Shown here: positions 15,715 through 40,498 of the stretch, piece after piece
Layout: the number at the start of each line of letters is the position of its first letter
Numbering within the stretch: position 1 is the stretch's first letter
NCBI GenBank assembly: GCA_937951485.1
Contig: CALEDJ010000015.1
Span: 1 to 45,310, forward strand
Source: an uncultured bacterium
Lineage (GTDB): Bacteria > Hydrogenedentota > Hydrogenedentia > Hydrogenedentales > CAILVY01
DNA length: 45,310 bases
Reading direction: 5' to 3'
The notes under the pieces: generated by a model
What the model was told of the DNA's origin: nothing
Databases searched by the model: none
Seen by the model: only the letters and a program-made list of their open reading frames with translations
Program-made: the position numbers and the translations under genes

Positions 15715-15730
15715 AGGCACGGGAATTGCT
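15715..15730 (+). promoter_or_regulatory. sigma-54 promoter of the CODH unit
   Basis: AGGCACGGGAATTGCT matches the TGGCACR-N4-TTGCW consensus at every position but the first, with GG and GC exactly 10 nt apart. The CooS start is 81 nt downstream of it. Two other C1 transcription units have the same element, and an NtrC-type activator is encoded at 21997. Confidence 0.8.
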
Positions 15731-15810
15731 CATTGGAACGCGCATGATGATGAATTTTACCAGTTTAATGCGGTTACTCAAACTTGACGACAACAGGTAA
15801 AGGAGTGCAC

Positions 15811-17781
15811 ATGCCGGAAGCGAAAAGGGTTTCAGCGGACGTTGCCGCAGATGAGATGGTGCGATTGGCGCAGGAACGCGGCGACAGACTGGCGCATGAC
15901 CGTTATCAGGCGATGCGGCCGCAATGCGGTTTCGGGCAGTTGGGGCTGTGCTGCCATAATTGCAATATGGGGCCGTGCCGGATTGACCCGTTTGGCCAGG
16001 GGACCAGGGAAGGCATCTGCGGCGCATCGGCGGACGTGATTGCAGCGCGGAATCTGGCCCGCCGTGCCGCGGTTGGCTCCGCGGCCCATTCGGACCATGG
16101 CCGCAGTATTGCCATGACGCTGCTGGAAACGGCGCGCGGCCAGGCGCAAGGGTATTCCATCAAAGGACCGGCCAAACTGCTGGCGCTGGCGAAGGAGTGG
16201 GGGATTGCGACGGACAAGCGCAGCCTGGAGGAGATTGCAGAGGAGGTGGCGCTGGCGGCGCTGGAGGACTTTGGGCGGCAGGACGGCGGCCTTCGGTTTG
16301 TCTCCCGCGCACCGGCAAAGGTGCAGGCGCGCTGGGAAAGTCACGGCGTGATGCCGCGCGGCGTTGATCGCGATATTGTGGGGGTGTTGCACAGCACGAA
16401 TATGGGCGGATCCAACGAGCCGTATCATTTGCTCCGCAGTTGCGTGCGGGCGGGCCTGGTGGACGGATGGGGCGGCTCAATGGTCGCCACAGAACTGAGC
16501 GACATCCTGTTCGGCGAACCCGCGCCGCTGGTATCCGAGGCGAACCTGGGCGTACTTAAGGAGGATCATGTCAACATTCTCGTTCATGGCCATGAACCCG
16601 TGCTTTCCGACGCGCTGGTGGCCGCCTCGCAAACCGACGAAGTGATGGCGGCGTGTGAGGCGGTAGGCGCGAAGGGCATTCAGTTGGCGGGGATTTGCTG
16701 CACGGCCAACGAAATTCTCATGCGCCACGGCGTACCCATCGCGGGCAACCTGCTCCACCAGGAATTTGCCCTGGTCACGGGGGCCGTGGACATGATGGTG
16801 GTGGATATCCAGTGCATTTTCCCGTCGTTGCGCGCAGTGGCGGGCAAGTATCACACGAAAATCGTCAGCACTTCGCCCAAGGCCCATTTTGAGGGGTTCA
16901 CCCACATCGAGTTCGACGAACGCCGCGCGCTGGACAGTGCGCGCACGCTGCTGTTGACCGGCATCCAGAATTTTGCGAACCGCGACCCAGGGAAGGTGCA
17001 CATCCCCACGGACAAGTCGCCATTGATTGCGGGATTTACCACCGAGGGCGTCTTTGATCATTTGGGCGGGCGCTACCGGCCCTCGTACCGCCCGTTGAAC
17101 AACGCCATCATAGACGGCCGTATCCGAGGCGTGGTCGGCATTGTCGGCTGCAACACCGTGAAGATCACGCAGGACGAGGCCCATCTGACGCTTGCCAAGG
17201 AATTGCTGCGCCACGATGTACTGATTGTGCAGACGGGGTGTTCGGCGATTGCCTGCGGGAAGGCGGGTCTGTTGACTCCGGAAGCGGTGGAACTGTACGC
17301 GGGGGCCGGGCTTCAGGAAGTATGCGATGCGGTGGGCTTGCCGCCGTGCCTTCATTTGGGCGCGTGCGTGGACAACACGCGCATCCTCACCGCGTGCATC
17401 GAGATATGCCGCGAAGGCGGCTTGGGCGATGACTTTGCGGAGTTGCCGGTTGCGGGGGCTGCGCCGGAATGGATGAGCGACAAGGCGATTGCCATCGGGT
17501 TCTACGTGGTCGGCTCGGGCATCTTTACCGTGGTCGGCGATTCGCTCCCGATTATGGGCAGCCCCCGGGTTGCAGACTACCTGACGGGCGGCATGGAAGA
17601 GGATTTCGGCGCCCGATTCGCTTTCGAGCGCGACCCGCTCAAGGCGGCGGCGCTTATTGTCGAGCATTTGAACGCCAAACGCGAGGCGCTGCATTTGTCG
17701 CCCATGATCTACGAGCCGCGACCGGCGGAAACCCTCGGCAAGAGGTGGCGCGCCGGCGGCGTCGCACTGGCGGCCGTATAG
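15811..17781 (+). CDS. cooS: anaerobic carbon monoxide dehydrogenase catalytic subunit
   Basis: 656 residues from the ATG at 15811 (AAAGGAG six nt upstream). The enzyme interconverts CO and CO2 at a nickel-iron C-cluster and passes electrons through B- and D-clusters to a ferredoxin. The N-terminal cluster motif CGFGQLGLCCHNCNMGPCRI is complete. C-cluster regions follow in order: LVHGHEPVLSDAL, GICCTANEIL, VVDIQCIFPSL, GIVGCNTVK, QTGCSAIACGKAG and HLGACVDNTRI. Length fits the Coo/Acs CODH family (about 630-670). It is the first gene of a unit continuing with CooF-, NuoE-, NuoF- and NuoG-like proteins, so its electrons probably go to NAD(P)+ or come from it. No acetyl-CoA synthase gene is adjacent. 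Confidence 0.97.
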   Translation: MPEAKRVSADVAADEMVRLAQERGDRLAHDRYQAMRPQCGFGQLGLCCHNCNMGPCRIDPFGQGTREGICGASADVIAARNLARRAAVGSAAHSDHGRSIAMTLLETARGQAQGYSIKGPAKLLALAKEWGIATDKRSLEEIAEEVALAALEDFGRQDGGLRFVSRAPAKVQARWESHGVMPRGVDRDIVGVLHSTNMGGSNEPYHLLRSCVRAGLVDGWGGSMVATELSDILFGEPAPLVSEANLGVLKEDHVNILVHGHEPVLSDALVAASQTDEVMAACEAVGAKGIQLAGICCTANEILMRHGVPIAGNLLHQEFALVTGAVDMMVVDIQCIFPSLRAVAGKYHTKIVSTSPKAHFEGFTHIEFDERRALDSARTLLLTGIQNFANRDPGKVHIPTDKSPLIAGFTTEGVFDHLGGRYRPSYRPLNNAIIDGRIRGVVGIVGCNTVKITQDEAHLTLAKELLRHDVLIVQTGCSAIACGKAGLLTPEAVELYAGAGLQEVCDAVGLPPCLHLGACVDNTRILTACIEICREGGLGDDFAELPVAGAAPEWMSDKAIAIGFYVVGSGIFTVVGDSLPIMGSPRVADYLTGGMEEDFGARFAFERDPLKAAALIVEHLNAKREALHLSPMIYEPRPAETLGKRWRAGGVALAAV

Positions 17782-17830
17782 ATAAGTGCGAATTGAATCT
17801 CCCACCAGCAAAGAGGGCATACAAGTTGTC

Positions 17831-18349
17831 ATGAAACAGATACTGGTCGTCAAGGCAGAGCGGTGCCTGGGGTGCAAGAGTTGTGAGATCGCCTGCGCCA
17901 TCGAGCACTCGAAATCGCAGGAACTGGTTGCGGCGCTGGGGGAATCACCCGCGCCGCAATCACGGGTGCGCGTGTTGCAGGGCGAAACGTTTGCCGTGCC
18001 GCTTCAGTGCCGGCAGTGCGAGGATGCCGCCTGCGTGGCGTCATGCCCGACGCAGGCGCTCCGGCGCGACCATGAGGGTCCGGTGGTGCTGGAACGCAGT
18101 CGGTGCATCGGCTGCATGTGGTGCATCGAGGCCTGTCCTTTCGGCGTCATCACCATGGACCGCAACAGCGGCGCCGTCGTGAAATGCGACCAGTGCTATG
18201 AGCGCGTCGCAGAAGGGAAAATGCCCGCCTGCGTGACGGCGTGCCCCACAAGCGCGATTGCCTGCCGGGACCTCGAGGCCGTCGTGGCCGAGAAACGCCA
18301 CGCCTATCTGGTACAGATAGAGCGGGCGGTGCGGGAGGAGGCGTCGTGA
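17831..18349 (+). CDS. cooF: CooF-like four-cluster ferredoxin
   Basis: 172 residues from the ATG at 17831; a GTG at 17786 is open upstream but has no homologous N-terminus. Four Cys motifs for 4Fe-4S clusters are visible: CLGCKSCEIAC near residue 12, CRQCEDAACVASCP near 62, CIGCMWCIEACP near 96, and CDQC ... CVTACP near 120-140. This matches CooF/HycB-type electron carriers, which take electrons from CooS. It lies 50 bp after cooS and overlaps the NuoE-like gene by four bases, so it probably relays CODH electrons to the flavoprotein encoded next. Confidence 0.93.
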   Translation: MKQILVVKAERCLGCKSCEIACAIEHSKSQELVAALGESPAPQSRVRVLQGETFAVPLQCRQCEDAACVASCPTQALRRDHEGPVVLERSRCIGCMWCIEACPFGVITMDRNSGAVVKCDQCYERVAEGKMPACVTACPTSAIACRDLEAVVAEKRHAYLVQIERAVREEAS

Positions 18350-18846
18350 GCGCGGGGGAAACTGTGTCTATCGCGGCGGACACGCCCCGGCTTGAGGCCG
18401 TCCTGCAGCGATATCGCCGGGTCCCCGCATCGCTGATTTCCGTGCTGGAGGATTTGAACGAGGAATTCCGGTATCTGCCACGCCCAGTCCTCGAGCATGT
18501 CTCGATGGCGCTCAATGTGCCGCTGAATCAGATCTACCATGTGGCAACGTTTTACAAGGTGTTCAACCTCGCCCCGCAGGGCAAGCACACAATCTGTGTG
18601 TGCGAGGGGACCGCATGCCATGTGAAAGGGGCGGGGGCAATTATGGAGAAACTGCAAGAGCAGTTGCGCGTGAGCGAAGGCGGCACCACGGAGGACGGCC
18701 AGTTTACGCTGCGCAGCGTTCGTTGCCTGGGCTGCTGTGCATTGGCGCCCGCAGTCATGGTTGACCATGACGTACACGGGGAGTTGCAATTGGACGAAAC
18801 AGCGCGACTACTGTCGCGGTATGCGGACAGGCCCGATGATGCATAA
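18346..18846 (+). CDS. NuoE-like [2Fe-2S] subunit of a soluble oxidoreductase
   Basis: 166 residues from the GTG at 18346 (GTGA overlap with the preceding stop; GGGAGGAGG upstream). A helical N-terminus (PASLISVLEDLNEEFRYLP) leads to a thioredoxin-like domain with the four [2Fe-2S] ligands in the pairs CEGTACH (C-x4-C) and CLGCC (C-x3-C), as in NuoE/HydC/HndA. It delivers electrons to or from the NuoF-like subunit. The next gene begins inside this one (overlap at 18836-18846), which points to coupled translation. Confidence 0.93.
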   Translation: MSAGETVSIAADTPRLEAVLQRYRRVPASLISVLEDLNEEFRYLPRPVLEHVSMALNVPLNQIYHVATFYKVFNLAPQGKHTICVCEGTACHVKGAGAIMEKLQEQLRVSEGGTTEDGQFTLRSVRCLGCCALAPAVMVDHDVHGELQLDETARLLSRYADRPDDA

Positions 18847-20746
18847 GTGCCCTGAACAACTGGCAGCAGTCCGGAAACGGGCGCGCGCCCGCCAAAACCA
18901 TGCACGCCCCCGGATTCTGGTGGGGGCCGCGACATGCGGGCTCGCGTCCGGCGCAGGCCCGGTATTGGAGGCGTTGCGCGCGGCGGCGGCCACGGGCGCA
19001 GAAGAGATGGAAATCACAGAGACCGGCTGCAATGGGGCCTGTTACCTCGAGCCGATCGTCGAGGCGGTATTGCCTGGCAAAACGCGCGTAATGTACGGGC
19101 ATGTCAAGCCCGGGGATGCGCCCATGATCATCCAGGCGACGGTCAACGGGACGGTCTATGAAGAACGGGCGCTGTGCCGTGTGGATGCGGATGAAATCCT
19201 GCTTGAGGACGTCGTTGCGCCGTATCGCCGCAATGGCCTCGATGCCGCCCTTGAAAGAATTGTCGCCCGTGATGCGCACCCGTTCTTTCGAAGTCAACGC
19301 CACATTGCCATGCGGAATTGCGGCGTGATTGACCCTGCTTCCCTGGAGGAATATGTCGCTCGGGGCGGCTATGCCGGCGCCGCCAAGGCGCTGCTCGAGA
19401 TGCGCCCGGAGAGCATCATCGAGGCCATCAAGCGCTCCGGCCTGCGTGGGCGCGGGGGCGGCGGTTTTCCCACCGGCCGCAAGTGGGAGGCCTGCCGCAA
19501 GGCGCCCGGCGAACCCAAATACGTCATTTGCAATGCGGACGAAGGAGACCCGGGCGCATACATGGACCGCGCCATCATCGAGGGTGACCCGCATTCAATC
19601 ATAGAGGGCATGATTATTGGTTCCTATGCCATCGGCGCGCATCTCGGCTATATCTATGTGCGCCAGGAATATCCCCTGGCCGTGAGAAGACTTCGGCTGG
19701 CGCTGCAACAGGCCGAGGAGGCAGGCTTTCTGGGCACGGACATTTTCGGGTCGGGCCATGAGTTCACCATCCAGATTAACCGGGGGGCGGGCGCATTTGT
19801 CTGCGGGGAATCCACGGCGCTGATGGCATCCCTCGAAGGGCGGGTGGGCGAACCTCGGGCCAAATATATTCATACCGTCGAATTCGGACTGTGGAACAAA
19901 CCGAGTTGCCTGAACAATGTCGAGACTTGGAACAACGTCCCGGCAATCATTCAGCGCGGGGCGGACTGGTATGCCGGGATTGGTACGACAGGCAGCAAAG
20001 GCACTAAGGTGTTCTCGCTGGTGGGCAGCGCGAAGCGGGCCGGTCTGGTGGAAGTGCCGATGGGGGTGTCGTTGCGTGAAGTGGTTGAGGAGATTGGCGG
20101 CGGCGTGACCGAAGGGCGCACGTTGAAAGCGATACAGACAGGCGGCCCATCGGGCGGATGTATTCCGGCGACGTTGCTGGACGTTCCCGTGGATTACGAA
20201 AGCCTCGGCGCCCTGGGTTCGATGATGGGATCAGGCGGCCTGGTCGTCATGGACAACAGGACCTGCATGGTGGATGTCGCGCGATACTTTACCGCTTTCC
20301 TCAAGGAGGAGTCCTGCGGCAAATGCGTGCCGTGCCGCGAAGGCTCGGCGCACATGCTCGATGTCCTCACCCGCATTTGCGAGGGGGCCGGCCGGGCCGA
20401 AGACATTCCATTGCTTGAGGAACTGTCGGTTGTCATGACGGACGGGTCCCTGTGCGCGCTGGGCGGCTCGGCGCCCAATCCCGTCTTGAGCACGCTCAAG
20501 TATTTCAGAAATGAATATCAGGCGCATATAGATGAACATCGTTGTCCCGCGGGCGTCTGCAAAGCCTTGCTTACCTACCGCATCGTTGCCGAAGACTGCT
20601 CGGGATGCGATGCCTGCGTGGACGCATGCCCTTCCGGCGCCATCTCCGGCGACTATTCCGAGGCGCACGTCATTGACGAATCATTGTGCGCCCGATGCGG
20701 CCTGTGCGTTCCCGCATGCCCCCAAGGCGCGATTATTCTGCAATGA
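18836..20746 (+). CDS. NuoF/HydB-like NAD(P)H-binding flavoprotein
   Basis: 636 residues from ATG 18836 (ATG 18839 is equivalent). An N-terminal thioredoxin-like [2Fe-2S] domain (cysteines in ATCGLASG and ETGCNGACYLEP) precedes the NuoF core: FMN site GLRGRGGGGFPTGRKW (about 202-217) with CNADEGDPGAYMDR, the NADH region GAGAFVCGESTALMASLEGR (about 318-337), and the 4Fe-4S site ESCGKCVPCREG (about 493-504) closed by SLCALG. Two further clusters end the protein: CSGCDACVDACP and CARCGLCVPACP. This is the HydB/HndC layout of bifurcating hydrogenases and formate dehydrogenases, here without a hydrogenase. With CooS and CooF it probably forms a CO- or ferredoxin-linked NAD(P)+ reductase. Confidence 0.93.
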   Translation: MMHKCPEQLAAVRKRARARQNHARPRILVGAATCGLASGAGPVLEALRAAAATGAEEMEITETGCNGACYLEPIVEAVLPGKTRVMYGHVKPGDAPMIIQATVNGTVYEERALCRVDADEILLEDVVAPYRRNGLDAALERIVARDAHPFFRSQRHIAMRNCGVIDPASLEEYVARGGYAGAAKALLEMRPESIIEAIKRSGLRGRGGGGFPTGRKWEACRKAPGEPKYVICNADEGDPGAYMDRAIIEGDPHSIIEGMIIGSYAIGAHLGYIYVRQEYPLAVRRLRLALQQAEEAGFLGTDIFGSGHEFTIQINRGAGAFVCGESTALMASLEGRVGEPRAKYIHTVEFGLWNKPSCLNNVETWNNVPAIIQRGADWYAGIGTTGSKGTKVFSLVGSAKRAGLVEVPMGVSLREVVEEIGGGVTEGRTLKAIQTGGPSGGCIPATLLDVPVDYESLGALGSMMGSGGLVVMDNRTCMVDVARYFTAFLKEESCGKCVPCREGSAHMLDVLTRICEGAGRAEDIPLLEELSVVMTDGSLCALGGSAPNPVLSTLKYFRNEYQAHIDEHRCPAGVCKALLTYRIVAEDCSGCDACVDACPSGAISGDYSEAHVIDESLCARCGLCVPACPQGAIILQ

Positions 20747-20759
20747 TGAAGGCGAGAAT

Positions 20760-21599
20760 ATGCATCAGATGAATCCTGTGAATTTCTCGATTAATGGTCG
20801 GCCAATGCGCGCAGCGCCAGGGGAAACGGTGCTGAGCGTCGCCCGCCGCAACGATATTCCCATCCCCACCCTCTGCCATCACGAGGCGCTTACGTCCCAG
20901 GGATCATGCCGGCTGTGCGTGGTCGAGGTGTCCTGGGGCGACCGATCCAAACTAGTCACGTCATGCATTTATACGCCTTACGAGGAAGACCGCATCGAAA
21001 CAGACACGCCCCGCGTTCGCACGCTTCGACGACTGGTGATTGAACTGTTGTTGGCGCGATGCCCGAACGTGGACGTGCTCCAACGGCTGGGCTGGGAATA
21101 CGGCGTGAAGCCTGGACGCCTGGCGCCTGAAGATGGGCGCGGAAAGGAACGCTGTATCCTCTGCGGCTTGTGTGTGCGCGTATGCGATGAGGTGGTGGGG
21201 CAACACGCCATCGGCTATGAAGGGCGTGGGGTGGAGCGGCGCATTACAACGCCATTCAACGATCATGCGGCGGCGTGCATTGGATGCGGCGCATGCGTAT
21301 ATGTCTGCCCGACAAGCGCGCTGCACTATGAAGACGTGGAAAACGTGCGCATTATGAAGGAGTTTCAAACCAGGGTGGAACTTGCGCAATGCCGACAGTG
21401 CGGACGTCGGTATGCGCCGGCTGTGTTGATTGAGAAAGTGACACGATGCGCGCAAACCAAGGAAGATGACCGGCACCTGTGCCCGGCTTGCCGCCGTCGC
21501 ACATTTGCAGAACGAATGTCAGCATGGATGCAAAAGCAACTGCCGGATGCCCGCGCCAACGGTGACCGTCTGGACGTGACAACACGCGCAGGAGGCTAG
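20760..21599 (+). CDS. NuoG N-terminus-like [2Fe-2S]/4Fe-4S protein with C-terminal zinc-ribbon-like region
   Basis: 279 residues from the ATG at 20760. The N-terminal plant-type [2Fe-2S] domain (CHHEALTSQGSCRLCVVEV, then SCIYTP) is as in NuoG/HydA. Two 4Fe-4S motifs follow: CILCGLCVRVCDEV (about 144) and CIGCGACVYVCP (about 182). There is no His-Cys3 cluster and no H-cluster or molybdopterin domain. The C-terminus has paired cysteines (CRQCGRRYAPAV, CPACRRRTF), as in a rubredoxin or zinc ribbon. It is an electron-wiring subunit of the CODH-linked complex, last gene of that unit. Confidence 0.88.
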   Translation: MHQMNPVNFSINGRPMRAAPGETVLSVARRNDIPIPTLCHHEALTSQGSCRLCVVEVSWGDRSKLVTSCIYTPYEEDRIETDTPRVRTLRRLVIELLLARCPNVDVLQRLGWEYGVKPGRLAPEDGRGKERCILCGLCVRVCDEVVGQHAIGYEGRGVERRITTPFNDHAAACIGCGACVYVCPTSALHYEDVENVRIMKEFQTRVELAQCRQCGRRYAPAVLIEKVTRCAQTKEDDRHLCPACRRRTFAERMSAWMQKQLPDARANGDRLDVTTRAGG

Positions 21600-21834
21600 C
21601 GGTCCCCCGACAGGTTATTACTATTCCAATCCAATCGGTATCGCCCGTGGACAATGACTGAAACTGCTGAGAACACCCGGCATCATTCTTCTCTTCATCG
21701 TATGGTGGCCATTGTTCCCGTCTTCCCCACCTCAACTCGAAGAAGCATCGGACTGCACGCGCGCATGCGATGTTCTCCTTTTTGGGTCCGTTTATTTTAT
21801 AACAGTCTGCGAAGTTCGAATGGTGTGAAGTTCT

Positions 21835-21850
21835 TGGCTTGTTTTTCGCA
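21835..21850 (+). promoter_or_regulatory. weak sigma-54-like element upstream of the NtrC-type regulator
   Basis: TGGCTTGTTTTTCGCA has GG and GC at the correct 10-nt spacing, but AC is replaced by TT and TTGC by TCGC. It may indicate autoregulation; weaker than the other three elements. Confidence 0.3.
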
Positions 21851-21852
21851 CT

Positions 21853-21938
21853 AAAGTGTAGTAACTTTTTTGGTTGCGGTGGATGTTCTTTGAAAAATGC
21901 GAATCTCAGGATATGCATCTCGCTTAAAAGTGCAGTAA
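21853..21938. repeat. pair of direct repeats AAAGTGYAGTAA
   Basis: AAAGTGTAGTAA (21853-21864) and AAAGTGCAGTAA (21927-21938) differ only in one pyrimidine. Their starts are 74 bp apart, close to seven helical turns, so the two copies face the same side of the DNA. Candidate binding sites for the adjacent regulator or another factor. Confidence 0.45.
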
Positions 21939-21996: not shown

Positions 21997-23373
21997 GTGA
22001 AGATTCTGTTGATTGATGATGAAAAGATCAAGCGCATGGCCTTGGGGGATGACTTGGCCGACGCGGGCTACACGGTTTGCGCGGTGCCAAACGCGGAAGC
22101 GGGGATGGCCTGTCTTGAGAAGCAGGAGTTTGATGTGGTGATAACCGACCTTCGGATGAACGGCATGGACGGGTTGACCTTTCTGAAGAAGGTCAAGGCG
22201 GATCACCCGGAGATCGAAGTCGTGATGATCACCGCCTATGCCACCGTTGACAATGCGGTGGAGGCGATGAAGATTGGCGCCTTTGACTATATAACGAAAC
22301 CTTTCGAGAGCGCCAAACTGATTCTGGTTCTTGAGAAGATTGCCAGGATAAAGGAATTGACGCGGGAGAACACGGATCTTCGCGCCGAACTGGCCCGTGC
22401 CACGCGGCATGGCGAAATCATTGGACAGAGCGAGGCGATGCGGGATGCTTTTGAATTGCTGCAAACCGCGATCCAGGGGGAGGCGCCCATCCTCCTATGC
22501 GGTGAAACGGGCACCGGCAAGGAATTATTTGCCGAAGCCATTCACAGATACGGCCCCCGCAAGAACGCCCCCTTCATACGCGTCAGTTGCGCGGCCTTGT
22601 CCCAGCAGCTGATGGAAAGCGAGTTGTTCGGCCATGAACGGGGCGCCTTCACGGGCGCCATGGACGAGAAGCCGGGGCGCTTCGAATTGGCCAATAAAGG
22701 GACCCTGTTCCTCGATGAAATTGACGATATCCCGTTGGACATCCAAGTCAAATTGTTGCGCGTACTGGATGGCATGCCCTTTGAACGCGTCGGGGGCGTC
22801 CGCTCCATCGTCACGGATGTGCGCATTGTGGCGGCGACGAAAGTGGACTTGAAATCCAAGGTGGACGCGGGCGCGTTCAGGATTGACCTCTACTTCCGGT
22901 TGAATGTGTTTCCGATCTGGATACCGCCCCTCCGCGAGCGCAAGGAAGATATCCCGCTGCTTTTCAACCATTTCCTGGACAAATACCGAAAGTCGCACGA
23001 ACCGCTTGAGGTGAGTGAAGAAGCCATGGCCCTGTTGTGGGATCATTCCTGGCCGGGCAACGTGCGGGAACTGCAGAACGTCACACGGCGCATCCTGATG
23101 GGATTGGGCAATCGCACCCGGATTCTGCCGCAGGACATACCTGCGGATTTGCGGCAAATTTCGGGCAAAACCGCCACCGCCAGGCCCAATACGTTCTACG
23201 AGGTGATCAGGGACGTCGAACGAGACATGCTTGAGAAAGCGCTTGAAACGGCGCAAGGCAACCAGAGTAGAGCAGCCGCCGCGCTTGGGCTGAAACTGTC
23301 CACATTCCGCGACAAACTGGCGAAGCACGGCATGTTGCATGTCGGCAGCGAAGCGGCCGCCCTGGACGCCTGA
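21997..23373 (+). CDS. sigma-54-dependent NtrC-family response regulator
   Basis: 458 residues from a GTG at 21997 (AGAGG upstream). Receiver domain 1-115: LLIDDEK, phospho-acceptor D51 (VVITDLRMNGMDG), conserved T in MITAYAT and K in DYITKPF. The AAA+ domain has Walker A GETGTGKELF (about 169), the sigma-54 contact motif GAFTGA (about 216), Walker B GTLFLDEID (about 238) and arginine-finger-region words PPLRERKEDIPLL. The C-terminus is a Fis-type helix-turn-helix (GNQSRAAAALGLKLSTFRDKL). It is built to activate sigma-54 promoters and lies between two units that have them (15715 and 23664). No kinase is adjacent; the one at 44152 is the best partner in view. No stop or frameshift is seen. Confidence 0.95.
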   Translation: MKILLIDDEKIKRMALGDDLADAGYTVCAVPNAEAGMACLEKQEFDVVITDLRMNGMDGLTFLKKVKADHPEIEVVMITAYATVDNAVEAMKIGAFDYITKPFESAKLILVLEKIARIKELTRENTDLRAELARATRHGEIIGQSEAMRDAFELLQTAIQGEAPILLCGETGTGKELFAEAIHRYGPRKNAPFIRVSCAALSQQLMESELFGHERGAFTGAMDEKPGRFELANKGTLFLDEIDDIPLDIQVKLLRVLDGMPFERVGGVRSIVTDVRIVAATKVDLKSKVDAGAFRIDLYFRLNVFPIWIPPLRERKEDIPLLFNHFLDKYRKSHEPLEVSEEAMALLWDHSWPGNVRELQNVTRRILMGLGNRTRILPQDIPADLRQISGKTATARPNTFYEVIRDVERDMLEKALETAQGNQSRAAAALGLKLSTFRDKLAKHGMLHVGSEAAALDA

Positions 23374-23466: not shown

Positions 23467-23503
23467 TTGCGGGATACCGCATTTTGTATGGGGTATCCCG
23501 CAA
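23467..23503. promoter_or_regulatory. 12-bp perfect inverted repeat, candidate enhancer site
   Basis: TTGCGGGATACC (23467-23478) and GGTATCCCGCAA (23492-23503) are perfect inverted copies across 13 nt. The centre lies about 180 nt upstream of the sigma-54 promoter, a usual distance for an NtrC-type activator. The half-site spacing (25 nt, arm to arm) would suit a dimer. It could also be a hairpin. Confidence 0.45.
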
Positions 23504-23663
23504 CTTCCAGCCGGACAAACGCCCGTATCGTTCACTTATAAAGCGCGGATGCTCTGGCTTTTCGAGTTCTCTGCCCGCAAATCTTTCTCAGAACACGCAA
23601 CATTCCCGCTATTCAGGGTCCTACCGGGGCGGGGGTGGCGTTTTTTTTGCCCCCGCGCTGCAC

Positions 23664-23680
23664 GGGCACAGGAGTTGCTA
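23664..23680 (+). promoter_or_regulatory. sigma-54 promoter of the CooC-AcsD-Fhs-Hdr-Met unit
   Basis: GGGCACAGGAGTTGCTA has GGCAC at 23665-23669 and TTGCT at 23675-23679, with the invariant GG and GC separated by 10 nt. Transcription would start near 23691, giving a leader of about 135 nt before the CooC-type gene. Confidence 0.82.
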
Positions 23681-25583: not shown

Positions 25584-25738
25584 CGGATTGTTTTAAGACA
25601 TCGGAATGAAGGGAACCAGGGACAAGCGAGCGGTGAACATGGCGGCAGTCGGGAAACGCGTGACGATTCCGGCATGAGCGCGGCGCGGATTCACCCGTTT
25701 TCAGCACACACCCGGAAAGGTATAGAGGAGAGCGGCCA

Positions 25739-27589: not shown

Positions 27590-27675
27590 CGGAACATATA
27601 TCCTCCGGCGCATCCCCGGCGCGGATCGGCGGCGGTAAGCGGACCAATTTGAATTTGAAACAGATGAGGCCTTGA

Positions 27676-28173
27676 ATGCCAGTAGCATTCAGAGAAAATA
27701 TCAACCGCTGTTACCAATGCGGAAAATGCTCGACCGGATGCCCCATAGCCGAGGCCATGGACATGCTTCCGCATCAGGTGATCCATTTGCTGGCCTTGGG
27801 AATGGAAGCGCGGGTCAGACCGCTCAACACGCCGTGGCTGTGCGCCGGATGCTATACGTGCGCGGTGCGCTGTCCCAACGACATTGACGTGACGGCGGTC
27901 ATGGGCGAATTGCGCGAGAAGGCGATTGCGGCGGGTGCGCCGTGCCCTTGCCCCGATGTACTCGCATTCCACAGGAATTTCCTGCGGGATTTGAAACGTC
28001 GGGGGCGCATCCATGAACTGCGGATGATGGGCGAATACAACCTGCTGACCCGCCGCCCATTCCGGGATGCCGCGCTGGCATCGAAAATGCTGCTGAAGGG
28101 GCGGCTGCCGTTGCGTGCGCCCAGGGCGTTGCGTGGTTTCAAACGGTGGGTGCGGAAAGCGGGGCGACTGTGA
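27676..28173 (+). CDS. hdrC: heterodisulfide reductase-like subunit C
   Basis: 165 residues with two 4Fe-4S motifs typical of HdrC: CYQCGKCSTGCP (about residues 12-23) and CAGCYTCAVRCP (about 56-67), followed by a basic helical C-terminus. HdrC passes electrons between HdrA and HdrB. It shares GTGA with hdrB. With hdrB, hdrA, mvhD, metV and metF it forms a set as in acetogens, where HdrABC-MvhD accompanies MetFV methylene-THF reductase. Confidence 0.93.
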   Translation: MPVAFRENINRCYQCGKCSTGCPIAEAMDMLPHQVIHLLALGMEARVRPLNTPWLCAGCYTCAVRCPNDIDVTAVMGELREKAIAAGAPCPCPDVLAFHRNFLRDLKRRGRIHELRMMGEYNLLTRRPFRDAALASKMLLKGRLPLRAPRALRGFKRWVRKAGRL

Positions 28174-29102
28174 AAAAGGCGACGGGACTATATCCGGGGT
28201 GCAGCCTGGAAGGAACTTCCAAGGCTTTCCGCACCAGCCTGCGCAGCGTGTTGCGGAGGCTCGATGCGCAGTGCGAGCCGTTGCGTGATTGGAACTGCTG
28301 TGGGGCGAGTTCGGCCCATGCCATGGACCATGAATTGTACCTGGCCTTGAGCGCGCGGAACCTGGCGCAGGCGCGAGACCAGGGCTACGAGGAAATCATT
28401 GCGCCGTGCGCCGCATGTTATCACCGGCTGGTTTGCGCGGAGATGGAACTGGCCCGGCATCCCGAAACGCTCGCGGCGGTCAACGCCCGGACCGGCCTGA
28501 ACTACGGCGGCGGAATTGCGGTGCTGAACATGCTCGATTACTTTACGGACCGGGTGGGCCTTTCCGCCATCGGCGAACAGGTCAGGCAACCCCTGAAAGG
28601 CCTGCGGGTCGCCTGTTACTACGGCTGCTTGAACAGCCGGATACCCCATGCCGCGGCCACGTCGGGGCCGCCAGACGCTCCCGGGGGCGCCACCCGCAGT
28701 GAATATCCGATGTCCATGGACCACATTGTTGCGGCATTGGGCGCGCAGCCGCTGGATTGGTCCTATAAGACCGAATGCTGCGGAGCCAGTTTGTTTGTAA
28801 CGGCATCGTCGGTTTCGGCGCGGCTTGTAGGGCACATTCTGAAAGATGCGGTGGCGGCGGGCGCGGATTGCATCAGCGTGGCCTGTCCAATGTGCCAAAA
28901 CAACCTCGATACCAAACAGGACGCGATACGCGCCGCCTTTGGCATCGGCCGGCCCATGCCGGTCCTGTTCATTACGCAGTTGATGGGGCTGGCTTTCGGC
29001 GTGTCGGCCGCTGAGTTGAGGATTGGAGATGCCCTTGTGCCGTTCCAGTGGCGCGTAGACAAGGGCGGCGCGGCGGCGGAGGTGACGGCATGTCCGGCAT
29101 GA
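28170..29102 (+). CDS. hdrB: heterodisulfide reductase-like subunit B
   Basis: 310 residues from the GTG at 28170 (overlapping the hdrC stop); a GTG at 28146 is a less likely alternative. Two CCG-type domains carry the cysteines of the noncubane 4Fe-4S clusters: YPGCSLEG, WNCCGASSAHAMD and CAACYHRLVC in the first; YYGCLN, ECCGASL and CPMCQNNLD in the second. The family role is two-electron chemistry on a disulfide-like substrate; here, in a methylene-THF context, the acceptor is unknown. It overlaps hdrA by 13 bases. Confidence 0.93.
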   Translation: MKKATGLYPGCSLEGTSKAFRTSLRSVLRRLDAQCEPLRDWNCCGASSAHAMDHELYLALSARNLAQARDQGYEEIIAPCAACYHRLVCAEMELARHPETLAAVNARTGLNYGGGIAVLNMLDYFTDRVGLSAIGEQVRQPLKGLRVACYYGCLNSRIPHAAATSGPPDAPGGATRSEYPMSMDHIVAALGAQPLDWSYKTECCGASLFVTASSVSARLVGHILKDAVAAGADCISVACPMCQNNLDTKQDAIRAAFGIGRPMPVLFITQLMGLAFGVSAAELRIGDALVPFQWRVDKGGAAAEVTACPA

Positions 29103-32100
29103 ACAACGGCGCTCCGGTCGGAGCGGTGCTGGTGCTCGGCGGCGGCATTGCGGGCATGCAGGCGGCGCTGGATTGCGCCAACTCCGGCTTCAAGGTGTAC
29201 CTGGTGGAACAGCAGGCGTCCATCGGCGGCAACATGGCGCGCCTGGACAAGACATTCCCGACCAATGACTGCGCGATGTGCATGATTTCGCCAAAACTGG
29301 TCGAGACCGGACGCCATCTCAATATCGAAATCATCGCAAACGCGGACCTGAAGGCGGTGGCGGGCACGCCCGGTCGTTTTCAGGCAACCATCAAGAAGCG
29401 TGCCCGGTATGTGGATGAGAACAAATGCAACGGGTGCGGGGATTGCGAACGCGCCTGCCCCGTGACCTGCAGGGATGCGTTCAATGGCGACCTCGGAGAG
29501 CGGCACGCTATCCATCGGTTGTATCCGCAGGCGATCCCCAACGTATATGCCATTTCCAAGGCAGGCGCACTGCCGCCATGCCGGGGCGTCTGCCCGGCGG
29601 GCGTGAATGCCCAGGGCTATGTGGCCCTGATCGCCAAGGGCAAATTCCTGGAATCGCTGGATGTGGTCCGCGAACGCATGCCCTTTGCGGGTATCTGTGG
29701 TCGCGTGTGCCATCATCCCTGCGAAACCCAGTGCAATCGCGCGAAAGTGGACGAGCCGATCGCCGTCCGCCACCTGAAGCGTTTTGTCGCCGATTATGAG
29801 TGGTCGCTGATAAAAACGGGCCAGTCCATCGCGCGCGCGCCCAGCGAAGCGCCTGTGGCCGAACCGCAGCGCTATCAGGAACGCGTGGCCGTCGTGGGCG
29901 GCGGCCCCGCCGGGATGACCTGCGCCAACGATCTGGCCAAGATGGGCTATGCCGTCACCGTTTTCGAGGCGGCGGAACAACTGGGCGGCATGATGCGCCA
30001 GGGGATTCCCGCCTACCGGCTGCCGCGTGAGGTGCTTGACCACGAGATCGCGCTCATCACCGGCCAAGGCATTGACGTGCGCACCAACCAGGCATTGGGC
30101 CGCGATTTCACCCTGTCAGACCTCCGGGCGCAGGGCTATGCCTGCACTTTTGTGGCCACCGGCGCGCACCTGCCCAAACGCATTCCGCTAGAAGGCAGCG
30201 ACGCCGTCGGCGTCCTGTACGGGACATCCTTTTTGCGCGAGGTCAACGTGGGACAAGCCCCGCGCCTGGGCAAGCGCATCGCGGTGATCGGCGGCGGCAA
30301 TGTCGCGATTGACGCGGCGCGCTGCGCCCTGCGCGAAAGCCCTGACAGCGCGGTGGCGCTGTATTGCCTGGAAGCGCGTGGGGAAATGCCCGCGCATGAG
30401 TGGGAGATACAGGAAGCGCTGGAGGAGGGCATCGCCATCCATCCGTCCTGGGGGCCGGGGCGCATTCTTGTCAGGAACGGCGCAGTGCGTGGGTTGGAAC
30501 TCGTGAGGTGTCTGTGCGTCTTTGATGAAAACAGGCAATTCAACCCGAAGTTTGACCGGGCAGAGACGCAACAGGTCACGGCGGACACGATTATTCTGGC
30601 GGTGGGCCAGGTTTGCGACCTGTCCTTTGTGGACGGGCATGTGCAAACGAAGCATGGACTGATAGCCGTGGACCGGATCACCCTCGAAACCTCGATGAAG
30701 GGCGTGTTTGCGGGGGGCGACAACGTGCTGGGGCCGGCATCGCTGGTGCAAGCCGTCGAGCAGGGGCACCGCGCCGCCGAGTCCATGCACCGTTTCATGC
30801 GCGGGCTTGACCTGCGTGAAGGCCGGGAAGCGGTCGAACGTAGCGCGGAATTCGCCGCCCCCCCCGCTGAGACGCCGGTGGTTCCCGCCAGGCGGATCGC
30901 CATTCCCACAGCCTCCCCGGAAGAACGGAAGCGGTCTTTTCTGGAGATGGAACACGGTTACACCCCGGAGATGGCGATGGCGGAAGCGCAGCGTTGCCTG
31001 AACTGCGGCATTTGCTCCCAGTGCAACGAATGCGTCCGGGTCTGCAAGGCCCATGCGATAGACCATGCCATGCGCGACCAGGACCTGACGCTGGAGGTCG
31101 GCGCTGTCATCGTGACCAACGGATACGATCTTTTTGACCCGCGTATCAAGGCCGAGTACGGGTTTGGCCGCTATCCCAACGTGATCACGAGCATGCAATT
31201 CGAGCGCATCCTGAGCGCGTCCGGGCCATACCAGGGGCACGTGCGACGTCCCGGCGACGGCAAGACGCCCAGGAAGGTCGCGTGGATTCAGTGCGTCGGA
31301 TCACGCGATACAACGCTGGGCAGGAACTACTGCTCTTCCGTTTGCTGCATGTACGCCACGAAAGAGGCGATCATCGCGAAAGAACACGAAAAGGACCTGG
31401 AGCCGACCATTTTCTTCATTGACCTCCGCGCTTTCGGCAAAGGGTATGAGGAATTCTACAACCGCGCCAAATCCCAATACGGGGTGCGGTATGTGCGCAG
31501 CCAGGTCTCCTCGCTCAAGGAGAATCCTGAGAACAAGAACATCATTATCCGGTATGTGGGGGAATCCGAGGGCCGCATACGCATTGTCGAGGAGGAATTC
31601 GATCTGGTGGTGTTGTCCGTGGGGATGACGGCGCGCCCGGACACCGCGGTGCTGACGCAAACCCTCGGCATCTCCTGCAACGAATACGGCTTTGCTCGCG
31701 GTTCGCAGGCGTTGCCGCTGCTGTCGGACAGGGAGGGGATTTATCTGTGCGGGACGGTGAGCGGCCCGAAGGACATTCCGGAGACGGTCATGGAAAGCAG
31801 CGCGGCGGCGGCGCTGTGCGGACAGTTGCTGGGCCGCGCGCGCGGGACGCGGGTGCGCATCAAGGAGTATCCCGCGGAGCGCGAGGTGGCGGGCGAAGCG
31901 CCGCGAATCGGCGTTTTCATCTGCCATTGCGGCACAAACATCGCCTCGGTGGTGGATGTCGCGGCCGTGGCCGAATATGTGAAAAGCATCCCCGGCCTGA
32001 CCCATGCGGAGCATACCCTGTACGCCTGCTCCCAAGACACCCAGGAACGGATCAAGGGCATCATTCAAGAGAAAAGGCTGAATCGCGTCATCGTGGCTTC

Positions 32101-33625
32101 CTGCACACCGCGCACCCATGAGCCGCTGTTCCAGGAAACCCTGCGCGAGGCGGGACTGAACAAATATCTCTTCGAGATGGCGGATATCCGGGAGCAATGC
32201 TCGTGGGTCCATCAAGGCGAATCCGTTCGGGCCACGGAAAAGGCCAAGGCGCTGGTACGCGGCAGCATTGGCAAAGCCAGAAACCTGGAGCCCCTGAAAT
32301 TCAATCGCGTGGGCGTCACGCGATGCGCGTTGGTTGTCGGCGGCGGCATCGCAGGCTTGACTGCCGCGCATTCGCTGGCGCGGCAGGGCTTTTCCGTGCA
32401 CCTGGTGGAGAAATCCGGCACGCTGGGAGGCCAGTTACGCAAAGTCCGCCGCAGTCTCGAAGGCTATGATTGGCAACGACACCTGGAGAACCTTATCGCG
32501 CAGGTGCAAGCCGACGAATCCATCACTGTGCACCTGAATTCCGAGATCGCCGAATGCAACGGCTTTGTCGGCAACTTCACCACCCGCCTCCAGGGGGCGA
32601 GCAACGCGACGATTAATCACGGCGTGACGCTGGTCGCGACCGGCGCCGCCGAGTTTCAGCCCGACGGATTCCTGTATGGCGGGAGTCCGCGCGTCATGAC
32701 GCAGCAATCTTTGGAGGAAATGCTTCATGGGGGAAACGGTTTGCGCGGGTCATCGGGGCACGCGGAACGCCCGCCGGAATCGGTGGTCATGATTCAGTGC
32801 GTGGGGAGCCGGGACGAAAAGCGGCCTTATTGTTCGCGGGTCTGCTGCGGCGCGGCGGTGAAAAACGCCCTTGCCGTTAAAGAGAAATATCCCGACACCC
32901 AGGTGTACGTGCTGTACCGGGATATGCGCACCTATCAGTACAGGGAAGAATACTACTGGCAGGCGCGTGACCGGGGAGTCGTTTTCATCCACTTTCCTGA
33001 CGAGGAATACCCCGAAGTCGGCCAGGAAGGGGATCGCCTGAGGGTTTCGGTGAGGGACACCGCCTTGGGCGAACCCCTGACGCTGCCCGCGGATTGGGTG
33101 GTGTTGAGCACGGCTGTTGTGCCGGACCGAGCCAGCAACGGGCGTCTAGCCGAACTCCTGAAGATTCCCCTGAATGATCATGGCTTTTTCATGGAGGCGC
33201 ACATCAAATTGCGGCCCGTTGACTTTGCGAATGAGGGCATATTTGTGTGCGGGCTGGCGCACTCGCCGAAATACACGGAGGAAAACATCTCCCAGGCGCT
33301 GGCGGCGGCGGGACGCGCCGCCTGCATCCTGTCCCGGAATTACCTGGAAGTGGGCGGCGTAATTTCTCATGTCAACCAGAACAAGTGCGCCGCGTGTCTG
33401 ACTTGCGTGCGGGAATGCGTTTACCAAGCCCCGTTCATCAATGCCGAGGGCAAGGCCGAGATCGAAGAAGCGAAATGCCAGGGCTGCGGCAACTGCGCGG
33501 CGGCATGCCCTGCCAAGGCAATCCAGTTGCAGGCGTTTACGGACGCCCAGGAACAGGCGTTGGTGCGCAGTCTTCTCAATGAAACGGCGGCGGAAGCGCA
33601 ACAAATGGCGCTGGCGCGGGAGTAG
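29090..33625 (+). CDS. hdrA: giant HdrA with inserted GltD/NfnB module and second HdrA half
   Basis: 1511 residues (perfect GGAGGTGA before ATG 29090). Layout: HdrA N-terminal FAD domain (VLVLGGGIAGMQAAL, residues 13-27) with CAMCMISPKL; a ferredoxin site CNGCGDCERACP (113-124); then an inserted GltD/NfnB-type module, with Cys-rich CRGVCPAGVNAQGY and CGRVCHHPCETQC (about 164-215), FAD site VAVVGGGPAGM (about 266) and NAD(P) site IAVIGGGNVAIDAA (about 402); then HdrA resumes at CLNCGICSQCNECVRVC (about 636) through IQCVGSRD and SVCCMYATKEA. From about 938 a second HdrA begins (IGVFICHCG, YACSQDTQERI, ASCTPRTHEP, VVGGGIAGLTAAH near 1082) and ends in two 4Fe-4S motifs. Probably the flavin-based bifurcating core, with an added NAD(P)H entry point. 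Ordinary HdrA is about 650 residues. Confidence 0.93.
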   Translation: MSGMNNGAPVGAVLVLGGGIAGMQAALDCANSGFKVYLVEQQASIGGNMARLDKTFPTNDCAMCMISPKLVETGRHLNIEIIANADLKAVAGTPGRFQATIKKRARYVDENKCNGCGDCERACPVTCRDAFNGDLGERHAIHRLYPQAIPNVYAISKAGALPPCRGVCPAGVNAQGYVALIAKGKFLESLDVVRERMPFAGICGRVCHHPCETQCNRAKVDEPIAVRHLKRFVADYEWSLIKTGQSIARAPSEAPVAEPQRYQERVAVVGGGPAGMTCANDLAKMGYAVTVFEAAEQLGGMMRQGIPAYRLPREVLDHEIALITGQGIDVRTNQALGRDFTLSDLRAQGYACTFVATGAHLPKRIPLEGSDAVGVLYGTSFLREVNVGQAPRLGKRIAVIGGGNVAIDAARCALRESPDSAVALYCLEARGEMPAHEWEIQEALEEGIAIHPSWGPGRILVRNGAVRGLELVRCLCVFDENRQFNPKFDRAETQQVTADTIILAVGQVCDLSFVDGHVQTKHGLIAVDRITLETSMKGVFAGGDNVLGPASLVQAVEQGHRAAESMHRFMRGLDLREGREAVERSAEFAAPPAETPVVPARRIAIPTASPEERKRSFLEMEHGYTPEMAMAEAQRCLNCGICSQCNECVRVCKAHAIDHAMRDQDLTLEVGAVIVTNGYDLFDPRIKAEYGFGRYPNVITSMQFERILSASGPYQGHVRRPGDGKTPRKVAWIQCVGSRDTTLGRNYCSSVCCMYATKEAIIAKEHEKDLEPTIFFIDLRAFGKGYEEFYNRAKSQYGVRYVRSQVSSLKENPENKNIIIRYVGESEGRIRIVEEEFDLVVLSVGMTARPDTAVLTQTLGISCNEYGFARGSQALPLLSDREGIYLCGTVSGPKDIPETVMESSAAAALCGQLLGRARGTRVRIKEYPAEREVAGEAPRIGVFICHCGTNIASVVDVAAVAEYVKSIPGLTHAEHTLYACSQDTQERIKGIIQEKRLNRVIVASCTPRTHEPLFQETLREAGLNKYLFEMADIREQCSWVHQGESVRATEKAKALVRGSIGKARNLEPLKFNRVGVTRCALVVGGGIAGLTAAHSLARQGFSVHLVEKSGTLGGQLRKVRRSLEGYDWQRHLENLIAQVQADESITVHLNSEIAECNGFVGNFTTRLQGASNATINHGVTLVATGAAEFQPDGFLYGGSPRVMTQQSLEEMLHGGNGLRGSSGHAERPPESVVMIQCVGSRDEKRPYCSRVCCGAAVKNALAVKEKYPDTQVYVLYRDMRTYQYREEYYWQARDRGVVFIHFPDEEYPEVGQEGDRLRVSVRDTALGEPLTLPADWVVLSTAVVPDRASNGRLAELLKIPLNDHGFFMEAHIKLRPVDFANEGIFVCGLAHSPKYTEENISQALAAAGRAACILSRNYLEVGGVISHVNQNKCAACLTCVRECVYQAPFINAEGKAEIEEAKCQGCGNCAAACPAKAIQLQAFTDAQEQALVRSLLNETAAEAQQMALARE

Positions 33626-33629
33626 GGCA

Positions 33630-34112
33630 ATGAGCACGGAAACAATTGCAATGCCGGCGGAGACAGCCGAAACGGACGCGTTGAGGATCATCGCGTTCTG
33701 TTGTCATTATTGCGCGTTTACGGCGGCGGACCTTGCCGGGACCATGCGCCGGCAATACCCGCCCAACATCCGCATTGTCCGGTTCCCATGCACGGGACGT
33801 CTGGAGACCAACACAATCCTGCAGGCCTTTCTCGATGGGGCGGACGGCGTACTGGTGGCGGGATGCGAGCCGGGCGGTTGCCATTTCCTCAAAGGGAATC
33901 TGCGCGCGGCCAAGCGGGTCGAACACTGCCGGAGGCTGCTGGAGCAGGCCGGTGTATCGCCGGAACGGCTTGAAATGCGGCATATCGCGGCGTCGCAGGG
34001 GCCGCTGTTCGCCGAAACGGCCAGGCAGTTTACGGAAAAGATTCGCATGATCAAGGAACAGGCCCGACGCGGGACAGCCCCCTCCGACGAATGCCTTGGA
34101 GACGAGCCATGA
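33630..34112 (+). CDS. mvhD: MvhD-like [2Fe-2S] subunit
   Basis: 160 residues (GGGAGTAGGG upstream). Typical MvhD/FrhD cysteines: FCCHYCAFTAAD near residue 24, RFPCTGRLE near 53, and AGCEPGGCHFLKGN near 80. In methanogens MvhD links hydrogenase to HdrA; in acetogens and sulfate reducers it links other donors to Hdr. It stands between hdrA and metV, with an ATGA overlap to metV, so it probably connects the Hdr core with the MetFV reductase here. Confidence 0.93.
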   Translation: MSTETIAMPAETAETDALRIIAFCCHYCAFTAADLAGTMRRQYPPNIRIVRFPCTGRLETNTILQAFLDGADGVLVAGCEPGGCHFLKGNLRAAKRVEHCRRLLEQAGVSPERLEMRHIAASQGPLFAETARQFTEKIRMIKEQARRGTAPSDECLGDEP

Positions 34113-34783
34113 TTGTAGCCGAACAGAAGCCCTTTGAGGATATTTACAGTTACGCCAAGAGGCATCGGCGCGTGTTGTTGCTGGGCTGCGGCACCTGCGT
34201 GACGGTGTGCATGGCCGGCGGCGAAAAGGAAGTGGGCATCCTGGCCTCGCTGGTCCGCCTCGCCGCCCGCGAACGCAATGACGACATCACGGTGGATGAG
34301 CACACCATCACGCGGCAGTGCGACGCGGAGTTTTTCGATGAGACGACCGCCCGGAAAGCCGCCGACGCCGAGGCCGTCATCTCGATGGGCTGCGGCGTGG
34401 GCGTGCAGTTCTGCGCACAACGATTCCCCGACAAAATCGTGTACCCCGCCCTGAACACCAAGTTCTACGGCGCCACAATCGAGCAAGGGGTGTGGGCGGA
34501 ACGTTGCGCGGGTTGCGGCGAATGCGTGCTGGCGGATTTCGGCGGCATATGCCCCGTCGCGCGGTGCTCCAAGAGCCTGTTGAACGGCCCCTGCGGCGGT
34601 TCGCAAGACGGCCGATGCGAGGTGGACCCGGAGCGTGTCGAGTGCGCCTGGCAACTCATTTACGAGCGAATGGAGGCGATGGGCCGCCTTGAGGAATTGG
34701 AGAAGATACAGCCGTTCAAGGACTGGTCGCAGCACCGCGACGGCGGCCCAAGAACCATCACAAGGGAAGAAGTGCGGCTATGA
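34109..34783 (+). CDS. metV: methylene-tetrahydrofolate reductase C-terminal-domain protein MetV
   Basis: 224 residues from the ATG at 34109 in ATGA overlap. Cysteine-rich zinc/iron-sulfur protein: GCGTCVTVC near residue 27, GCGVGVQFC near 95, and a C-terminal CAGCGECVLADFGGICPVAR (about 136-155) and GPCGGSQDGRCEV (about 165-177), the last being the MetV-typical NGPCGG..G.CE motif. It partners MetF in acetogens and other Wood-Ljungdahl bacteria and is required for activity. Coupled to metF by a second ATGA. Confidence 0.93.
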   Translation: MIVAEQKPFEDIYSYAKRHRRVLLLGCGTCVTVCMAGGEKEVGILASLVRLAARERNDDITVDEHTITRQCDAEFFDETTARKAADAEAVISMGCGVGVQFCAQRFPDKIVYPALNTKFYGATIEQGVWAERCAGCGECVLADFGGICPVARCSKSLLNGPCGGSQDGRCEVDPERVECAWQLIYERMEAMGRLEELEKIQPFKDWSQHRDGGPRTITREEVRL

Positions 34784-35835
34784 ACACCACCATGCTGAAA
34801 GCCGGAAGCCGGTTGGAGCGGATATTGCGCTCGGGGCGCCCCGTCGTCACCGCAGAATTAGGGCCGCCCAAGAGCGCTGACACGGATCTCATCCGCAGAA
34901 AGGCCGGATACCTGCGGGGCGTGGTTGATGCCGCCAATATCACGGACAACCAGACTGCAATCGTGCGCATGTCGTCCATTGGGGCCGCTCTGATCGCGAT
35001 GCAGGAGGGCCTCGAACCGGTCATCCAGATCACATGCCGTGACCGCAACCGCTTGGCCGTTCAGAGCGACGTCTTGGGGGCCTATGCCCTGGGTATTCGC
35101 AATGTCCTGTGCCTGACCGGCGACCACCAGAAATTCGGCAACCATCCTGCGGCGAAAAATGTGTTCGACATGGACTCCATCCAGCTGGTGGCCATGCTGA
35201 GAGCCATGCGGGATGAAAAAGTCTTTGCCTGCGGCGATGAAATCCGCAACTCGAAAAAGGCGCCCGTCGTCGAGCCAAGAATGTTCATCGGCGCTGCCGC
35301 CAATCCCTTTGGCGATCCCTTCCCCTTCCGGGTCGCGCGCCTGGCCAAAAAGGTCAATGCCGGGGCCGATTTCATTCAGACGCAGTGCATTTACGACATG
35401 AAACGGTTCCGGCAGTGGATGCAGCAGGTGTGTGACCGGGGACTCCATGAAAGGGTTTACATTCTGGCCGGCATCACTCCCCTGAAGTCACTGCGAATGG
35501 CGGAGCACATGCGCGACAATGTCGCGGGGTTGACCGTGCCCGAAGAGATCATTGAACGACTGCGCGGCGCGGAAAATGCCGCCGAGGAAGGCGAGCGAAT
35601 CGCCGTCGAGCAGATTCAGGAATTGCTCCAGATTCCAGGTGTGCACGGCGTGCATATCATGGCGATTGAAAGCGAACACATAGTACCCGATCTGCTGAAG
35701 AAAGCGGGGCTGTTGCCGCGCCCGGTCGTGGCAGACCCTTTGCATGACGCAGTGACGTCCGGCCCCGAAATGCTGCGCGATTCCGTAAGCGGCGTTGCGG
35801 AGAATCGCAACCGGGCCGCGCAACCCGTCGGATAA
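34780..35835 (+). CDS. metF: methylenetetrahydrofolate reductase
   Basis: 351 residues, starting in ATGA overlap with metV. TIM-barrel MetF: VVTAELGPPKSADT (residues 22-35) with the catalytic-region Glu, ITCRDRNRLAVQSD (about 84-97), LTGDHQKFG (about 111-119), a GAAANPFG motif (about 172) and AGADFIQTQCIYDM near 202. Reduces methylene-THF to methyl-THF using flavin; in this operon the electrons probably come through MetV and the Hdr-MvhD complex rather than directly from NADH. Last gene of the unit; about 80 nt later the third sigma-54 promoter begins the next unit. Confidence 0.96.
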   Translation: MNTTMLKAGSRLERILRSGRPVVTAELGPPKSADTDLIRRKAGYLRGVVDAANITDNQTAIVRMSSIGAALIAMQEGLEPVIQITCRDRNRLAVQSDVLGAYALGIRNVLCLTGDHQKFGNHPAAKNVFDMDSIQLVAMLRAMRDEKVFACGDEIRNSKKAPVVEPRMFIGAAANPFGDPFPFRVARLAKKVNAGADFIQTQCIYDMKRFRQWMQQVCDRGLHERVYILAGITPLKSLRMAEHMRDNVAGLTVPEEIIERLRGAENAAEEGERIAVEQIQELLQIPGVHGVHIMAIESEHIVPDLLKKAGLLPRPVVADPLHDAVTSGPEMLRDSVSGVAENRNRAAQPVG

Positions 35836-35914
35836 TCTGCGAAAGTTGTCTTGCAATAATGCGAATGTCAAAGATAGCCCATCCTCAGAACGCTGGACAA
35901 CCCCCTCCACACGG

Positions 35915-35930
35915 TGGCACATGATTTGCT
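35915..35930 (+). promoter_or_regulatory. sigma-54 promoter of the PRC-barrel/formate dehydrogenase unit
   Basis: TGGCACATGATTTGCT: TGGCAC at 35915-35920 and TTGCT at 35926-35930, GG and GC 10 nt apart, a full match to the consensus core. Predicted start near 35941, giving a leader of about 135 nt before the PRC-barrel gene. An inverted GGTAT...ATACC lies in that leader (36039-36056). Confidence 0.85.
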
Positions 35931-40495: not shown

Positions 40496-40498
40496 GGG

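Follow-up and report, generated by a model that had tools for sequence, protein, structure and literature searches.

The general mechanism of NtrC-type two-component sigma-54 regulons is well established. In the NtrB-NtrC, AtoS-AtoC, and ZraS-ZraR systems, a histidine kinase is paired with a regulator composed of a receiver domain, an AAA+ domain with the GAFTGA motif, and a Fis-type HTH; the target promoters are of the -24/-12 type, and the regulator sites are tandem palindromes spaced by about two helical turns and located 100 to 200 bp upstream. A sigma-54 promoter has essentially zero basal activity and needs its AAA+ activator. In the FhlA formate regulon of Escherichia coli, a formate dehydrogenase gene is likewise transcribed from a sigma-54 promoter with the help of an AAA+ activator. 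FhlA has neither a receiver domain nor a partner kinase, and it is not known to control CODH/ACS.

Formate metabolism is named among the E. coli sigma-54 operons (PMC4641369). The sigma-54 regulomes of Desulfovibrio vulgaris and of Clostridiales have been reconstructed from genomes (PMC4641369, PMC6615313); the main texts of these two papers contain zero mentions of Wood-Ljungdahl, carbon monoxide, or acetyl-CoA synthase, and the latter paper suggests a role of sigma-54 in autotrophy only via fermentation and amino acid genes. The on/off control of the Wood-Ljungdahl pathway in bacteria is poorly known, and the described cases that we found use other sigma factors. In Clostridium autoethanogenum, Wood-Ljungdahl genes carry the Pcauto motif, linked to the TetR-family protein CAETHG_0459 together with the housekeeping sigma-A (PMC6873888), and in Sporomusa sphaeroides a role of SigH is possible for Wood-Ljungdahl genes, while sigma-54 acts on betaine genes (PMC12456013). 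No published sigma-54 control of Wood-Ljungdahl genes was found in open-access papers.

Here, we analyzed a window of 45,310 nucleotides (the first part of contig CALEDJ010000015.1, here C15, assembly GCA_937951485.1) from an uncultured bacterium of the phylum Hydrogenedentota, together with the remainder of the contig and genome. A single cluster of about 39.5 kb (C15:15716-55248) encodes every step of the Wood-Ljungdahl pathway. It is organized in four units that follow one another head to tail on one strand, and an activator gene and a kinase gene are placed between units (Table 1); a divergent cooC precedes unit 4 outside the window. Judged from genes and sites, the whole set is very probably run by a dedicated two-component, sigma-54-dependent regulon through the cluster's own activator and kinase. 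As for the genes themselves, the product of hdrA (29048-33625) carries an extra NADPH-glutamate-synthase-like half, and the neighboring mvhD open reading frame (ORF) overlaps the hdrA end. The 230-amino-acid product of the first ORF in the formate dehydrogenase unit has no Pfam or NCBIfam match.

Table 1. Predicted regulatory and coding features of the Wood-Ljungdahl cluster, with positions on contig C15
Feature	Position	Strand	Description
Predicted enhancer 1	15535-15571	+	TTGCGGTATTCCGCAA (15535-15550) and TTGTGGATTGCCGCAA (15556-15571)
Sigma-54 promoter 1	15715-15730	+	AGGCACGGGAATTGCT; element GGCACGGGAATTGCT at 15716-15730; CODH unit
Unit 1	15784-21599	+	cooS (likely ATG 15811), HydN-like FeS protein, NuoF-like, HoxU-like
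NtrC-type response regulator (predicted activator)	21997-23373	+	Receiver, sigma-54 AAA+ with GAFTGA, Fis-type HTH (HTH_8)
Predicted enhancer 2	23467-23503	+	TTGCGGGATACCGCAT (23467) and ATGGGGTATCCCGCAA (23488)
Sigma-54 promoter 2	23664-23679	+	GGGCACAGGAGTTGCT; element GGCACAGGAGTTGCT at 23665-23679; unit 2
Unit 2	23827-35835	+	cooC1, acsD, fhs, hdrC, hdrB, hdrA (1525 aa), mvhD, metV, metF
Predicted enhancer 3	35773-35810	+	CTGCGCGATTCCGTAA (35773) and TTGCGGAGAATCGCAA (35795); overlaps metF 3' end
Sigma-54 promoter 3	35915-35930	+	TGGCACATGATTTGCT; element GGCACATGATTTGCT at 35916-35930; unit 3, formate dehydrogenase
Unit 3	36078-43884	+	ORF 36078-36770, NuoE-like, NuoF-GltD fusion, fdhA, mobA
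Histidine kinase	44152-45310 in the window, continues to C15:45462	+	HisKA, HATPase_c
Predicted enhancer 4	C15:46426-46461		Beyond the window; palindromes at 46426 and 46446
Sigma-54 promoter 4	C15:46612-46627		Element GGCACAGGACTTGCT at C15:46613-46627; precedes acsB, 1.3 kb past the window end
Unit 4	Beyond the window, to C15:55248		acsB, acsC, acsV, acsE, two small genes, folD

A first-pass annotation of the window had described three near-perfect -24/-12 elements, each 80 to 150 nt before the first gene of its unit. The elements are as described, apart from GGCAC starting one base later: promoters 1 to 3 have a TGGCACN5TTGCW-like sequence in which the spacing of GG and GC is exactly 10 nt, and the distances to the likely start codons, read from the sequence, are about 81 nt for cooS, 148 nt for cooC, and 148 nt for ORF 36078. 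The same annotation proposed a search for this element at acsB, acsC, acsE, and folD units and named a genome without rpoN as a refutation. Element and rpoN were both found: an element precedes acsB-acsC-acsV-acsE-folD (C15:46613; 181 nt to acsB), and rpoN is present as a 482-amino-acid open frame (E value, 4.8e-61). The statement that no element lies inside the operons holds for strict matches and fails for a weaker matrix match within metF (TGGCAGACCCTTTGCA at 35729; score, 14.6). A terminator-like site is located at 23621-23638. When up to one mismatch was allowed, no match to an IHF site was found between enhancer and promoter.

Relative to background, the density of such elements gives a divided result. 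Genome-wide, the strict pattern GGCACN5TTGCW occurs 16 times, which is the count of the reversed control (16), so that the pattern alone is at background level and proves nothing; some of the other matches precede genes typically under sigma-54 control (flagellar rod genes, one type IV pilin gene, and one exopolysaccharide gene, as judged by eye from the translations). Locally, the three matches in the window compare with a mean of 0.36 in shuffled sequences, none of 100 shuffles reached three or more, and 4 of the 16 genomic matches fall within 31 kb on this contig. Genome-wide scans consisted of pattern and profile searches, and a simple sigma-54 matrix was applied contig-wide. The four top matrix matches on both strands of the whole 124,879-bp contig are exactly the four unit starts, and a Markov simulation puts the probability of such a match in the 250 nt before a given unit at about 0.0014.

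Each of the four promoters is preceded by two imperfect TTGCGG-N4-CCGCAA-type palindromes in tandem; the copies are 20 to 22 bp apart, and the pair centers lie 137 to 193 bp upstream of the -12 GC. Every promoter is thus accompanied by a repeated palindrome 100 to 200 bp upstream, as in an upstream activating sequence. With up to 5 mismatches of 24 allowed, tandem pairs occur in only four places on the 125-kb contig, and each of these places precedes one of the promoters; no pair with up to 4 mismatches appeared in 20 simulated contigs. A tandem profile found only those four places in the whole genome (next candidate, E value of 0.2) and, across 68 Hydrogenedentota genomes, added only the cooS promoter of one relative, G058. 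This profile was trained on the same five rows (the four pairs and that of G058), so that their own scores are high by construction and the result lies in the lack of any further match. Beyond the promoter and palindrome elements, the four promoter regions are mutually unalike; with no other shared similarity, they cannot be regarded as young duplicates of one another, and an origin by recent duplication was rejected. Enhancer 1 falls inside ORF 14772-15713, which lies upstream of cooS and has no family match; because of this position, the ORF may be a gene in decay or no real gene at all.

The product of the gene at 21997-23373 has the domains of an NtrC-type activator, namely, a receiver, Sigma54_activat with GAFTGA, and HTH_8. 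It is not NtrC itself, since its TIGR01818 score (435.7 bits) is under the equivalog cutoff of 558.6, and with the FhlA family model this protein falls far short of the cutoff. Several NtrC-type paralogs exist in the genome. Neither a sigma-54 element nor a tandem palindrome was found before the activator's own gene. Orthologs of the activator (56 to 66% identity) are present in 3 of the 67 other Hydrogenedentota genomes searched (G044, G048, and G020). The four orthologous activators have one and the same recognition-helix region, KLSTFRDKLAK, from which the paralogs deviate.

In all three of these relatives, a kinase gene directly adjoins the activator gene, and this kinase is the ortholog of the HisKA- and HATPase_c-containing kinase at 44152, with the same N-terminal Cys-rich domain. 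Because of this adjacency, the kinase is taken as the partner of the activator, and the two genes, separated by 20 kb in this cluster, most likely form a single split pair. The N terminus of the kinase consists of a hydrophobic stretch followed by a Cys-rich domain that resembles the two-CW domain; it scores 23.9 bits with NF045718, under the cutoff of 35, and the motif is recognizable. Six Cys residues are common to the four orthologs. It is likely that this domain is the sensor, and the signal is possibly redox or metal. A lone palindrome (TTGCGGCCTATCGCAA, 43676-43691) within mobA, some 460 bp before the kinase gene and without a sigma-54 element, possibly reflects chance or autoregulation.

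The palindrome motif was read off the window's contig and then looked for in relatives. In G058 (contig JAPLKX010000398.1), tandem palindromes lie upstream of the sigma-54 element before cooS; despite both palindromes and the promoter, no activator ortholog was found in this bin, which is 84% complete. In G048, an exact palindrome is flanked by a sigma-54 site (score, 19.0) on one side and the genes of the orthologous kinase-activator pair on the other. Near the activator genes of G044 and G020, no clear palindrome-promoter pair was found. The AcsB of G045 is 79% identical, but the -24/-12 bases are degenerate, the palindromes are absent, and a sigma-70-like promoter is visible by eye in this locus (L060). 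Among the exact palindromes found elsewhere in G020, G044, G045, G048, and G058, only that of G048 beside the kinase-activator pair has a high-scoring sigma-54 site nearby. At the G048 locus (L039, G048:C90, 217-5077), the sigma-54 element and exact palindrome are upstream of a gene whose MoeA-like matches are weak. Next come a cyclic-nucleotide-binding-domain gene and a PAS kinase gene, and this group, which faces the orthologous pair, is perhaps another target of this activator family. Locus L060 (JAACEL010000001.1) matches G045:C620 in gene order, and G045 is placed in the same order of Hydrogenedentota as the window genome.

A conservation survey was drawn from 80 AcsB loci in the genome collection. 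G058 (L071) and two metagenome-assembled genomes (MAGs) of Actinomycetota (L061 and L063) retain the strict element immediately ahead of cooS. The element is absent before cooS in L062, L065, L067, L069, L070, L074, and L078, so that universal conservation across ACS loci was rejected; L065 and L067 have sigma-70-like promoters by eye and lack a -24/-12 element. Loci that lack the element include several of Planctomycetota, Verrucomicrobiota, and other groups. The conservation of the -24/-12 bases in orthologous loci, to which the first-pass annotation had pointed as a check, is therefore partial: it extends to G058 and the two Actinomycetota MAGs, and the bases are degenerate in G045 and absent in these other loci. 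Given the loci that lack the element, the predicted -24/-12 control of ACS loci is lineage specific.

In both Actinomycetota loci, an NtrC-type regulator and a kinase adjoin the cluster, and the promoter regions share, in addition to the -24/-12 element, two GCCGA-N5-CGGC palindromes at about -205 and -106. The kinase has a different N terminus, which is PAS-like by eye. In a tree of 36 regulators, the Actinomycetota activators are sister to the cluster activator (support, 97/85), with long branches and limited sampling. A histidine kinase gene also follows the deltaproteobacterial ACS clusters L085 (5892-8486) and L138 (17038-18723), and L085 has an NtrC-type regulator as well; no convincing sigma-54 element was found in these two clusters. 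In L081 (Omnitrophota), a strict match lies inside an ORF. Across these loci, predicted sigma-54 control is found together with a kinase-NtrC pair in certain lineages and is not inherent in the pathway itself. We tentatively suggest that the pair might travel with, or repeatedly join, ACS clusters across phyla (Hydrogenedentota, Actinomycetota, and possibly Deltaproteobacteria), where it would turn the whole Wood-Ljungdahl pathway on and off through sigma-54 and lineage-specific palindromes.

The steps of the proposed mechanism that go beyond the inventory of genes and sites are drawn from the established mechanism of the NtrC-type family. A signal would reach the kinase through its Cys-rich domain, and the kinase, whose gene lies between units 3 and 4, would phosphorylate the regulator, whose gene lies between units 1 and 2. 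Once phosphorylated, the activator would occupy the tandem palindromes at two sites two helical turns apart, form an active AAA+ ring, and loop to sigma-54 RNA polymerase, and all four promoters would open together for transcription of the four units. Because sigma-54 promoters have near-zero basal activity, this arrangement would tie an expensive, oxygen-sensitive pathway strictly to one sensor. A softer version, to which we give some weight but which seems unlikely, is that sigma-54 drives the units while read-through or extra sigma-70 promoters provide basal expression, so that the pair tunes rather than switches. It would agree with the same-strand, head-to-tail order of the units, with the lack of a clear sigma-54 element at the activator and kinase genes between them, and with a terminator-like site that may be leaky; the full promoter-enhancer set of each unit, needless under read-through, argues against this version.

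Several NtrC-type paralogs in the genome, and the palindromes of G058 without a detectable activator ortholog, would also be compatible with real sigma-54 promoters whose palindromes are read by another NtrC-type activator or an unrelated regulator, the cluster's pair controlling something else. We consider this improbable, because the activator gene sits inside the cluster, its recognition helix is conserved, and the exact palindrome and strong sigma-54 site of G048 lie beside the orthologous pair. It is hardly credible that the sites are functionless sigma-54-like matches and palindromes arisen by chance in a G+C-rich genome, with sigma-70 transcription as in related clusters: the genome-wide strict count equal to its control and the sigma-70-like promoters of L065 and L067 fit such an origin, whereas the clustering of 4 of the 16 sites at the four unit starts, their rank as the contig's best four matrix matches, the independent tandem palindrome confined to them, and its conservation in G058 speak against it. 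The single sigma-54 C1 regulon proposed in the first-pass annotation is strengthened by rpoN, the fourth promoter, the cluster-encoded activator and kinase, and the tandem palindrome, which in this genome occurs at these four promoters only.

The probable regulon is of the known NtrC-type kind with an unusual target, the Wood-Ljungdahl set. For an uncultured phylum, it yields a regulator that can be tested, a precisely defined DNA site, and a candidate for the sensor domain, and the motif can be used to seek the same control elsewhere. As in the work on the Desulfovibrio vulgaris and Clostridiales regulomes, activators, palindromes, and -24/-12 promoters were reconstructed from genomes. The locus resembles the Pcauto case of C. 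autoethanogenum in having a common promoter signal upstream of Wood-Ljungdahl genes and differs from it in the predicted use of sigma-54 rather than a TetR-family protein and sigma-A. With the FhlA regulon, it would share a formate dehydrogenase gene that has a sigma-54 promoter and an AAA+ activator. The closest likeness in domains, promoter type, and the spacing and position of the tandem palindromes is with NtrB-NtrC, AtoS-AtoC, and ZraS-ZraR. In contrast to those systems, the predicted targets comprise a complete Wood-Ljungdahl set, the palindrome is TTGCGG-N4-CCGCAA, the kinase and regulator genes lie 20 kb apart, and the putative sensor carries a Cys-rich two-CW-like domain that scores below its family cutoff.
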